Assembly (NCBI GenBank): GCA_016125275.1
Contig: WGMB01000017.1
Coordinates: forward strand, 62,001-126,000
Source: Acidobacteriota bacterium
GTDB taxonomy: Bacteria; Acidobacteriota; Terriglobia; Bryobacterales; UBA6623
DNA: 64,000 bases
Direction of reading: 5' to 3'
Shown: positions 7,200-9,877 of the stretch, in pieces
How positions within the stretch are numbered: the stretch's first letter is position 1
Layout of the letters: each line of letters starts with the position of its first letter
Notes under the pieces: model-generated
Database searches by the model: none
What the model saw: the letters and a program-made list of their open reading frames with translations, nothing else
What the model was told of the DNA's origin: nothing
Program-made: the position numbers and the translations under genes

Positions 7200-8057
7200 T
7201 CAGCGCGGAAAGTAGAGAGCGCCCCAGGCGATCAGCTCGGCGGGGCCTTCCAGCGACACTTCTGACTGCGGCGTCTGCCAACGGACCGTCATCTCGCCGG
7301 CCGGCGTCTGGATCACCACCGGGCTCTTGGCGCGTCCGCTGAGCACCGAGGCCACCGCGGCGCCGGTGGAGCCCGTGCCGGAGCTCAGCGTCTCGCCGGC
7401 GCCGCGCTCCCAGAACCGCACGTCGATGGTTTTCTCATCCACGCGCCGGACGAACGACACGTTCGTACGCTTGGGGAAGCGCGGGTGCCGCTCGATCTCG
7501 GCGCCGAGGGTCCGCCAATCCCAGTCGAAGTGCTCGACGAACAGGGCGCATTGCGGATTGCCGACATCGACGATGGCCACCTCGCGGGGCCAGCCGCCGG
7601 CCTCCAACTCGCAGCCGATCTCCGCCGGATTCCAGGACGGGACGCCCATGCCCATCTCGAAGTCGAAGCGCACGCCGTCCCGGTTCAAGAGCCGGACCGT
7701 CTTGACGCCGGCCTTGGTACCGATCCGCAACGCGGCTCCGGGCTGGCTGTCGCGCATCAGGAATGCCGCCGCGCAGCGCGTACCGTTGCCGGAGATCTCG
7801 GCCTCGCTGCCGTCGGAGTTGAAGATCCGCAGCGAGTAGTCCTCCTCGCCGGACCGCGCGGGAAAGACCACCTCCACACCGTCGGCGCCGACGCCGAACT
7901 GCCGGTGGCAACTGCGCTTGGCCAACTCCGGCAAGTCCTGCTCCTGCAAGCCGGCGTGCGTCAAGGACTCCCATTCCGCCACGAGAAAATCGTTGCCGAC
8001 CGCCTGCGCCTTCAGGAATGGGATTTCCATGACTGTCATCCGTTGGGGGTCTGTCAT
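7200..8057 (-). CDS. DapF-fold protein lacking both catalytic cysteines
   Basis: 285 residues, normal length for diaminopimelate epimerase, with the usual landmarks: AVGNDFLV, RIFNSDGSEAE, GNPQCALFV, RTNVSFV and ERGAGETL. However, the first catalytic cysteine (DapF CGNG) is Ser89 in ISGNGTRC, and the second (ACGTG) is Ser226 in SSGTGS; both are TCC codons. Substrate-gripping residues around them are kept. It is the last gene of an operon with methylthioadenosine phosphorylase and a PfkB kinase (35-nt gap). It may be an isomerase or epimerase with a different base pair, or a non-catalytic or DAP-unrelated relative. The start may instead be at MTVMEIP or MEIPF; no ribosome site decides it. Confidence 0.7.
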   Translation of the reverse strand: MTDPQRMTVMEIPFLKAQAVGNDFLVAEWESLTHAGLQEQDLPELAKRSCHRQFGVGADGVEVVFPARSGEEDYSLRIFNSDGSEAEISGNGTRCAAAFLMRDSQPGAALRIGTKAGVKTVRLLNRDGVRFDFEMGMGVPSWNPAEIGCELEAGGWPREVAIVDVGNPQCALFVEHFDWDWRTLGAEIERHPRFPKRTNVSFVRRVDEKTIDVRFWERGAGETLSSGTGSTGAAVASVLSGRAKSPVVIQTPAGEMTVRWQTPQSEVSLEGPAELIAWGALYFPR

Positions 8058-8092: not shown

Positions 8093-9010
8093 CTAGAACT
8101 CCGTGAACCGGCGGAACTCTTCGAAGCGCTTCTCGATGTCGTCGCGAGTGAGCGTGCGCAGCCTGCCCACGCCGAACTGCTCGCAGCAGAAGCTGCCCAT
8201 CACCGAGCCGTAGATCATCGCCTTGCGCAGGTGCTGGTGCGAGGCGAAGCCGATGTCGTCCACGCCTTGCTCGGCAAGGTAGCCCATGAATCCGCCCGCG
8301 AACGAGTCGCCCGCCCCGGTCGGATCATACACCGTCTCGAGCAGGAAACCGGGGGCGATGAAGTACCCTTCCGGACGGAACAGGATCGCGCCGTACTCGC
8401 CGCGCTTGATCACGACCGTGTGCGGCCCCATGGCGTGGATCTTCTCGGCCGCGCGGCGCAGGTTGTACTCGCCGGAGAGCATCCGCGCCTCGCCGTCGTT
8501 GATGAGGATGAAGTCCCAGTTACGAATCGCTGCCTTCAGGTCGTCGAGGGCGCCTTCGATCCAGAAGTTCATCGTGTCGCCGCCGACGAACCGGGGATTC
8601 TTCATCTGCCCGTGCACCTGGCTCTGCAGGCTGGGGTGGATGTTGCCCAGGAACAGGTACGGAGAATCCTGGTAGGCGGCCGGCAATGACGGATTGAAGT
8701 CCGCGAAGACGTTCAGCTCGGTCTTGAGCGTCTCGCGCTCGTTCATGTCCGGCGAGTAGACGCCCTGCCAGAAGAACGTCTTGCCCCCGGGCACCTTCTC
8801 CAGCCCCTCGAGATCGATCTCGTGCTCCCGCAGCAGGGCTTCGTCCTCGCGATGAAAGTCCTCGCCAACGACGGCCACGACCTTCACGGACGTAAAGAAG
8901 CTGGCGGTCAGCGCGATGTACGTCCCCGCCCCGCCCAACATGCGATCGACTTTGCCATGCGGCGTTTCCACGCCGTCGTAGGCTACGGATCCAACGACAA
9001 CCAGTGACAT
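8093..9010 (-). CDS. PfkB-family carbohydrate or nucleoside kinase
   Basis: 305 residues. N-terminal VVVGSVAYDGVETP and LGGAGTYIALTASFF, and the C-terminal signature YDPTGAGDSFAGGFMGYL with catalytic Asp, define a ribokinase-fold kinase. An AAGGA Shine-Dalgarno sequence is 7 nt before the ATG at 9008-9010. It starts 15 nt after the methylthioadenosine phosphorylase stop, so the two are co-transcribed. The pairing suggests phosphorylation of ribose, methylthioribose or a nucleoside arising from methylthioadenosine turnover; this is inference, because PfkB substrates cannot be read from these motifs. Cytosolic. Confidence 0.78.
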   Translation of the reverse strand: MSLVVVGSVAYDGVETPHGKVDRMLGGAGTYIALTASFFTSVKVVAVVGEDFHREDEALLREHEIDLEGLEKVPGGKTFFWQGVYSPDMNERETLKTELNVFADFNPSLPAAYQDSPYLFLGNIHPSLQSQVHGQMKNPRFVGGDTMNFWIEGALDDLKAAIRNWDFILINDGEARMLSGEYNLRRAAEKIHAMGPHTVVIKRGEYGAILFRPEGYFIAPGFLLETVYDPTGAGDSFAGGFMGYLAEQGVDDIGFASHQHLRKAMIYGSVMGSFCCEQFGVGRLRTLTRDDIEKRFEEFRRFTEF

Positions 9011-9025
9011 GAATGATTCCTTTTC

Positions 9026-9877
9026 CTAGAGATATTTGCCGATCAGGCGAGCGTACTTTGCCCGTGAGGCGTCGGAGATCTTGGAGCGATCCGTGAGGAT
9101 CGAGTTGCTCAGAGCGTTGGCGAACGGGCTGGGACCGTCGGGAATGTTCTGGACGGCCTCGATAGCCACGGCCTGGGCGTTGGCGGCGTTCTTGGTCAGG
9201 TACTCGATCACCTGCTCCACCGTCACAGCGTCGTGCTCCTCGTGCCAGCAGTCGTAGTCGGTGACCATGGCGACGGTGGCGTACGACATCTCCGCCTCGC
9301 GGGCCAGCTTGGCCTCTTGCAGGTTCGTCATCCCGATGACGTCGAAGCCGCAGGCGCGGTGGAAGTTCGACTCCGCCAGCGTGGAGAACTGCGGCCCTTC
9401 CATGCAGCAGTAGGTGCCGCCGCGGCTGACCTTGACGCCGACCTTGCGGCAGGCGGCCTCGGCCACGTCGCCCAGGGTCTTGCAGACCGGGTGCGCGAAG
9501 GCCACGTGCACGACGACATCCTCGTCGAAGAAGGTCGAAGGCCGGCCCTTGGTCCGATCGAAGAACTGGTCGGGAATCACGAAGTCCAGCGGGGCCAGCT
9601 CTTCGCGCAGCGAACCGACCGCGCTAAACGACAAGAGCCACTCGACGCCCAGCTCCTTGAAGCCGTAAATGTTCGCTCGAAACGGCAAATTGGACGGATT
9701 GATGCGGTGGCCGCGGCCGTGGCGGGCCAAAAACACGACCTCGCGGCCGGCGATCGTGCCTTGGATGTAAGAATCCGAGGGCTCGCCCCAAGGGGTCTCC
9801 AGCCGCACTTCGCGCCGATTCTCGAGCGCGTCCATGTGATAGAGGCCGCTGCCTCCAATAATTCCAATCTTGGGCAT
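9026..9877 (-). CDS. mtnP: S-methyl-5'-thioadenosine phosphorylase
   Basis: 283 residues from the ATG at 9875-9877. PNP/MTAP family: IGIIGGSGLY, FLARHGRGHRINPSNLPFRAN, CMEGPQFSTLAES, GMTNLQEAKLAREAEM and TDYDCWH all match methylthioadenosine phosphorylase. It splits 5'-methylthioadenosine with phosphate to adenine and 5-methylthioribose 1-phosphate, recycling a by-product of polyamine and SAM metabolism. It leads an operon with the PfkB kinase and the DapF-fold gene. A TACCAT box 9 nt before the ATG suggests a very short leader. A longer reading in this frame runs into the divergent gene at 9933 and is not credible. Confidence 0.92.
   Translation of the reverse strand: MPKIGIIGGSGLYHMDALENRREVRLETPWGEPSDSYIQGTIAGREVVFLARHGRGHRINPSNLPFRANIYGFKELGVEWLLSFSAVGSLREELAPLDFVIPDQFFDRTKGRPSTFFDEDVVVHVAFAHPVCKTLGDVAEAACRKVGVKVSRGGTYCCMEGPQFSTLAESNFHRACGFDVIGMTNLQEAKLAREAEMSYATVAMVTDYDCWHEEHDAVTVEQVIEYLTKNAANAQAVAIEAVQNIPDGPSPFANALSNSILTDRSKISDASRAKYARLIGKYL

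Follow-up and report, generated by a model that had tools for sequence, protein, structure and literature searches.

The only homologue of diaminopimelate (DAP) epimerase, DapF, found in the genome of this soil acidobacterium carries serines at both positions where DapF has its catalytic cysteines. We give a probability of roughly 0.7 to the reading that this protein is the DAP epimerase of the organism, converting LL-DAP to meso-DAP with Ser89 and Ser226 as its acid/base pair. The substrate, the activity and the roles of both serines are what we infer here; the observations from which we start are the sequence, a fold model, residue conservation, distribution, pathway genes and gene contexts. 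In a wider form, to which we give slightly better than even odds, the proposal is that of a thiol-free and cofactor-free two-serine epimerase. It would be the sole enzyme for this step in the greater part of a large phylum and would have evolved separately in several phyla, the second cysteine having been exchanged before the first. The accepted mechanism of DapF requires a thiol/thiolate pair and holds serine to be a poor substitute for it.

In the following, the window is the whole stretch of 64,000 nucleotides that was analysed, and residue types are written in the order of the two catalytic positions (for example, Cys/Ser).

The serine pair in a DapF fold

The gene lies at positions 7200..8057 on the minus strand of the window, a strand that the first-pass annotation left unstated, and encodes, from an ATG start, a protein of 285 amino acids (P0001). 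The protein scores 211.4 bits against TIGR00652, the curated DapF model of NCBI (cut-off 114.65). A Pfam search at an E-value of 0.01 returned DAP_epimerase (PF01678), a sub-threshold match to PhzC-PhzF (PF02567; 19.5 bits against a cut-off of 27, which falls short of PhzF membership) and nothing else; no match to the proline racemase family was listed in this search. The first-pass annotation had claimed that both catalytic cysteines are replaced by serine, and this is correct. Ser89, in the motif AEISGNGTRCA, is encoded by TCC at 7791..7793 (minus strand, read 7793-7791) and aligns with the first catalytic cysteine, Cys75 of Anabaena DapF; Ser226, in GETLSSGTGSTG, is encoded by TCC at 7380..7382 (minus strand, read 7382-7380) and aligns with the second one in the alignment with the same enzyme. 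The first of these cysteines belongs to the PROSITE signature of DapF, as quoted in PMC8225329. Since the two catalytic cysteines that mark a DapF are replaced, the protein is filed not as an ordinary member but as a serine-type variant which probably works as DapF.

The AlphaFold2 model of the protein (pLDDT 96.9, pTM 0.92) places Ser89 directly before helix 90-100 and Ser226 directly before helix 227-239. In a structure comparison, the nearest structures were DapFs, namely those of Anabaena (9mro_A; Z 36.5, 261 aligned residues, rmsd 1.9) and Arabidopsis (3ejx; Z 36.4, 266 aligned residues, rmsd 1.9). The window protein is thus like DapF (TIGR00652, PF01678; 9mro, 3ejx and the Haemophilus influenzae structure 1gqz) in fold, length, helix positions of the pair, DAP ligands and pathway company, but differs from it in having two serines in place of the catalytic cysteines. 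Two other DapF motifs are also altered in the window's order, where GNPH is usually GNPQ and GLGND is usually changed. O-ureidoserine racemase (7vdy; Z 34.1, 265 aligned residues, rmsd 2.0) has the DapF fold too, but acts on another substrate, and its pair is presumably Cys/Cys. The proline racemase superfamily structures listed are 11-16% identical to the window protein.

Anabaena DapF grips the distal end of DAP via Asn66, Asn164, Asn197, Glu215 and Arg216 (PMC12039745), and all five have identical counterparts in the window protein by alignment: Asn80, Asn167, Asn199, Glu217 and Arg218. Among 216 distinct Ser/Ser proteins, Asn22, Asn199, Glu217 and Arg218 are each conserved in every one, Asn80 in 215 and Asn167 in 212. 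The Asn at position 167, which binds the distal carboxylate, is replaced in all 19 Cys/Cys proteins typed from the window's phylum, by Val in 17 and by Asp in 2; on this point the Ser/Ser proteins resemble DapF more closely. Many of these Cys/Cys DapFs with Val or Asp (L138, L142, L154 and others) have one neighbour gene in common. Besides the catalytic pair, just four columns (98, 100, 197 and 225) separate the residue-type groups by the threshold used; to work with a natural Ser/Ser pair, an enzyme would have to be adapted at other sites as well.

Pathway genes and neighbouring genes

A second, Cys/Cys dapF in the genome, a possibility considered in the first-pass annotation, was not found: a PF01678 search returned the two halves of the window gene alone. 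The genome contains LysA (486.1 bits, cut-off 297.9), DapA (335.2, cut-off 206.15), DapB (124.9, cut-off 122) and DapD (NF008808, 299, cut-off 204; 183.6 against TIGR00965, below its cut-off of 375.4). A bypass to meso-DAP via Ddh was rejected, as no Ddh was found in 200 genomes of the class. For DapL, TIGR03540 gave nothing above the cut-off in 199 genomes, and the best hit of our genome to this model has its top score as an alanine transaminase; TIGR03542 found DapL in four of 149 genomes, ours not among them. The genome therefore has the DAP pathway, with DapA, DapB, DapD and LysA over cut-off, and no known bypass, with neither Ddh nor DapL over cut-off. The idea of a new isomerase or lyase, put forward in the first-pass annotation, loses ground here by a refuting condition set in that annotation itself: a sole DapF-like gene found, accompanied by these four enzymes and no Ddh, points to the usual DAP-epimerase role carried out with unusual residues. 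One DapF gene and no Ddh were likewise found in eight Ser/Ser genomes of unstated completeness, six of Zixibacteria type and two of Actinomycetota. LysA was found with Ser/Ser in 31 of 47 genomes and with Cys types in 7 of 17, a difference that is not significant (p 0.09; 64 typed of the 119 genomes searched).

Some genomes of the class fit less well. A search with P0001 gave no match in 44 of 200 class genomes, and 15 of the 20 listed belong to one family (f7). All but one of the 20 have LysA, 17 of them over the cut-off. One no-match genome, G173, does contain a Ser/Ser homologue, which is diverged and was missed. In G153, dapB, dapA and dapD lie together (L391) and lysA is on L370; no dapF was found in the approximately 0.84 of 3.7 Mb that was scanned. 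It is possible that the f7 genomes have a very diverged DapF that was missed, or that another route to meso-DAP exists in the class. Confidence in the epimerase reading is set no higher than stated above mainly because of class genomes with LysA and no detected DapF.

In the window, dapF is the last of three minus-strand genes in the order mtnP, pfkB, dapF, with gaps of 15 bases between mtnP and pfkB and 35 bases between pfkB and dapF. The methylthioadenosine phosphorylase gene mtnP (9026..9877, minus strand) scores 316.4 bits against TIGR01694 (cut-off 274.85), and its start is placed near 9877 because the family match begins at residue 71 of an open reading frame listed to 10081. The pfkB-family kinase gene (8093..9010, minus strand), directly upstream of dapF in the same operon, matches PF00294 with 82.8 bits (cut-off 25.8), and no NCBIfam model exceeds its cut-off for this kinase. 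No lysine or cell-wall gene adjoins dapF in the three-gene operon, which bears out the first-pass description of it. The kinase recurs near Ser/Ser dapF across the class.

The link of dapF to mtnP and pfkB is real and recurrent in Acidobacteriota. Both genes are near dapF in several families and many loci of the window's class, and besides pfkB (10 of 14) the dapF neighbourhoods fetched for the order encode a PMT_2 protein and a member of the UDP-glucose dehydrogenase family. Among the matches listed for 116 loci selected by a DNA pattern (see below), mtnP is near dapF in five, all named Acidobacteria or Blastocatellia, and pfkB in eleven, all Acidobacteriota or its groups; the flanks are short in many of the loci used for the mtnP counts. 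These neighbours, found in more Acidobacteriota than the class alone, are one reason to consider that a DapF-fold protein has moved to another reaction while an unrecognised enzyme supplies meso-DAP. Such a protein might isomerise or cleave a DAP-like amino acid, or serve as an isomerase or lyase in the salvage of methylthioadenosine or nucleosides. The class genomes with LysA but no detected DapF are a further point in its favour. We judge this explanation unlikely. The distal DAP ligands are conserved almost without exception, and neither mtnP nor pfkB was found near the listed pattern-selected loci named outside Acidobacteriota, with flanks of up to 8 kb.

Other neighbours of dapF also speak against a different reaction. 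In the window's class, ldcA and mpl often follow Ser/Ser dapF: counted on distinct contigs, ldcA lies close to 16 loci of known residue type, each of them Ser/Ser, and to two unread ones, and mpl to 14 read and two unread loci. The named substrates of LdcA and Mpl are peptidoglycan peptides, in the case of Mpl with meso-DAP. Mpl exceeds its cut-off of 388.7 at three loci (452.9, 405.1 and 402.9), and LdcA matches PRK11253 below the cut-off. At three loci (L090, L254 and L259), ldcA and mpl occur together with mtnP. An mpl relative is also near a Cys/Cys dapF (L156). In three Actinomycetota metagenome-assembled genomes (MAGs), Ser/Ser dapF is followed by a gene for LL-DAP aminotransferase (NF006756; 549.1, 539.1 and 556.3 against a cut-off of 507), and the one read at length has the order miaB-miaA-dapF-dapL-hflX. 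The diverged Ser/Ser dapF of G173 (TIGR00652, 73.7 bits, below the cut-off) is directly followed by dapL (613.8, cut-off 364.7), with dapA, dapB and lysA (293.6, just below the cut-off) close by. The dapF-dapL pair occurs with Cys/Ser dapF in a Bacillota MAG (L303) and with Cys/Cys dapF in Parabacteroides; Ser/Ser dapF has the same operon partners as the Cys enzymes.

The clustering of Ser/Ser genes with mtnP, which the first-pass annotation had suggested looking for, is seen repeatedly within the class and also in part of the remaining Acidobacteriota, but Ser/Ser dapF of other lineages has dapL or ldcA-mpl beside it. Of the two possibilities raised there, we favour serine chemistry, and a salvage enzyme is unsupported in view of the DAP ligands and these neighbours.

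Genomes with more than one DapF gene bring the other-reaction explanation back at a different point. Two DapF genes and Ddh occur together in each of nine Blautia-type genomes (L192 and eight similar ones from Blautia/Eubacteriales, six of the nine named Blautia; L307-L314 and L316). One DapF is Cys/Cys throughout, and the second is Ser/Ser in the eight genomes that allowed both residues to be read. Two Nitrospirota genomes (L201, L226, L322 and L323) have a Ser/Ser DapF as well as a Cys/Cys DapF of the GVPH type, and relatives of lysA, dapA and dapB are near the Cys/Cys copy. In these genomes, where it is an extra copy, the Ser/Ser protein may have another function. A Streptomyces plasmid gene annotated as dapF (L340:304-1248) is also Ser/Ser, is adjoined by genes for a 2OG-Fe dioxygenase and a molybdopterin oxidoreductase, and perhaps belongs to secondary metabolism. 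A change of reaction by such a replacement has a parallel in a relative of proline racemase that became a dehydratase through Cys-to-Thr (PMC8142540). In the tree described below, however, the Ser/Ser group of Blautia, Nitrospirota and Streptomyces stands apart from the main group of Acidobacteriota. Another genome, G513, has two DapF genes, and residues were read in one of them.

Spread and history of the pair

The Ser/Ser observation reaches far beyond one gene. A protein search across the order with the window protein found a match in 144 of 150 genomes, nearly always one each (two matches were listed in three genomes). Every typed locus of the order (50) and of the remaining class (27, of which two come from one genome) carries Ser/Ser. 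For the rest of the phylum, the 85 typed loci comprise 63 Ser/Ser, 19 Cys/Cys and 3 Cys/Ser; these proportions are rough, as the loci were found with a Ser/Ser query and 80 were chosen to span many families and scores. Taken together, the 162 loci picked by similarity to the window protein, and not by residues, are Ser/Ser (140), Cys/Cys (19) or Cys/Ser (3), with no other type. In one class genome (G212; 95% complete, 5% contaminated), two different Ser/Ser dapF genes lie on separate short contigs (L103 and L104), either as a second copy or as contamination.

In addition, genome contigs of GTDB were scanned for a TCN serine codon at position 226 in a Trp-Glu-Arg-Gly context, a protocol that shows where such genes occur and not how frequent they are. 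At least 120 loci were found. Among the matches listed, 98 of 120 could be typed (76 Ser/Ser and 22 Cys/Ser), and the remaining 22 were duplicates, gave no hit or were short. Again among the matches listed, serine at the second position occurs outside the phylum in Zixibacteria, Actinomycetota, Nitrospirota, Bacillota (Blautia and relatives), Pseudomonadota and Poribacteria, and the full Ser/Ser pair in Zixibacteria, Actinomycetota, Nitrospirota and Blautia. A Cys/Ser DapF is the sole DapF found in six MAGs, of Alphaproteobacteria (L227), Rubrobacteraceae (L240), Rubrobacter (L222), Fermentithermobacillaceae (L231), Poribacteria (L206) and Nitriliruptorales (L234); the L231 MAG also has Ddh. 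In the open-access literature, to which our search was confined (subscription papers lay outside its scope), we found no report of a natural Ser/Ser DapF and no answer as to the diamino acid of acidobacterial peptidoglycan or the lysine genes of Koribacter.

All searches together gave 271 distinct typed proteins (275 rows minus four repeats, the window gene among them): 216 Ser/Ser, 30 Cys/Cys and 25 Cys/Ser. Both catalytic positions hold Ser or Cys exclusively, and there is no Ser/Cys protein in this set, where the second position was fixed by the pattern in the genome-contig part. Codons were read in 142 Ser/Ser genes, of which 140 had not been picked by the DNA pattern and two were pattern-picked genes found a second time. 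Serine is encoded there by each of the four TCN codons and by AGC, the latter at position 89 in eight genes and at position 226 in six. Both serine codon families are thus used, as selection for serine itself would give.

The Ser/Ser pair of the window gene is neither chance nor decay. An error of sequencing, assembly or annotation, or a gene in decay, has a negligible probability; we found no point in its favour, and the open frame, the high-confidence predicted fold and the agreement of all typed loci in the order and the rest of the class are against it, in line with the first-pass view that the gene is intact. A DapF that has lost catalysis but is retained for a different role, such as binding to another protein, is very improbable too, but has some points in its favour. 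Cys-to-Ser mutants of related enzymes are nearly inactive: single changes leave PddB with under 0.1% of its activity (PMC8225329) and greatly reduce that of HisR (PMC11602996). The C73S and C217S forms of H. influenzae DapF (2q9h and 2q9j), which like the window protein have serine at one or other catalytic position but are single engineered mutants and not a natural pair, are slow (PMC12039745). A role in binding also has a precedent in E. coli DapF, which interacts with RppH (PMC4227774). A dead enzyme, however, should drift to Ala, Gly and other residues, and so the restriction to Ser and Cys, with the above reservation on the second position, counts against this explanation, as do the use of both codon families and the intact substrate pocket.

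The history of the pair was examined in a tree of 59 rows from which the two catalytic columns were excluded and whose root is not fixed. One starred group consists of 25 Ser/Ser rows, which are Acidobacteriota wherever named or of the window's phylum. The Ser/Ser rows of Zixibacteria are inside a starred Zixibacteria group, the deeper rows of which are Cys/Ser. A further Ser/Ser group (support 93, not starred) contains Blautia, Nitrospirota, the Streptomyces plasmid gene and two rows of the window's phylum, and one more Ser/Ser row is placed among the Cys/Cys genes of the phylum. This tree requires six changes, three of them forced by starred branches; a FastTree tree of 161 rows also requires six, four of them forced in this way. 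A single origin of Ser/Ser was rejected on these grounds. The trees fit a repeated origin, with Cys/Ser as a plausible step, and the direction from Cys/Cys through Cys/Ser to Ser/Ser is the one that we would propose for a tree with no fixed root.

A proposed two-serine mechanism and its possible consequences

If the window protein is the DAP epimerase of the organism, it would bind its substrate in the manner of known DapF, with the distal end gripped by Asn80, Asn167, Asn199, Glu217 and Arg218. The proximal carboxylate would be seated against the N-termini of the helices that follow Ser89 and Ser226, inside a cleft that is closed and dry. Helix dipole and desolvation would activate one serine to take the alpha proton, and the other serine would return a proton from the opposite face. 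The product, meso-DAP, would serve both lysine and peptidoglycan. Cysteine is favoured in such pairs for its lower pKa and easier desolvation, according to a review (PMC8142540). There is nevertheless a precedent in the proline racemase superfamily, a 4-hydroxyproline epimerase with a natural Ser/Cys pair (PMC4113996), which has a related fold and a natural serine in the acid/base pair of a working epimerase, but differs in having one serine and another substrate.

Should an entire phylum prove to produce meso-DAP by means of serines, the case for cysteine on grounds of pKa would need revision, and DapF inhibitors that attack the cysteines would fail on Ser/Ser bacteria. Annotation by name without a check of the residues would then hide a mechanistic class. 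The Cys/Cys, Cys/Ser and Ser/Ser relatives, some of which share an operon partner, form a natural series on the exchange of an acid/base pair.
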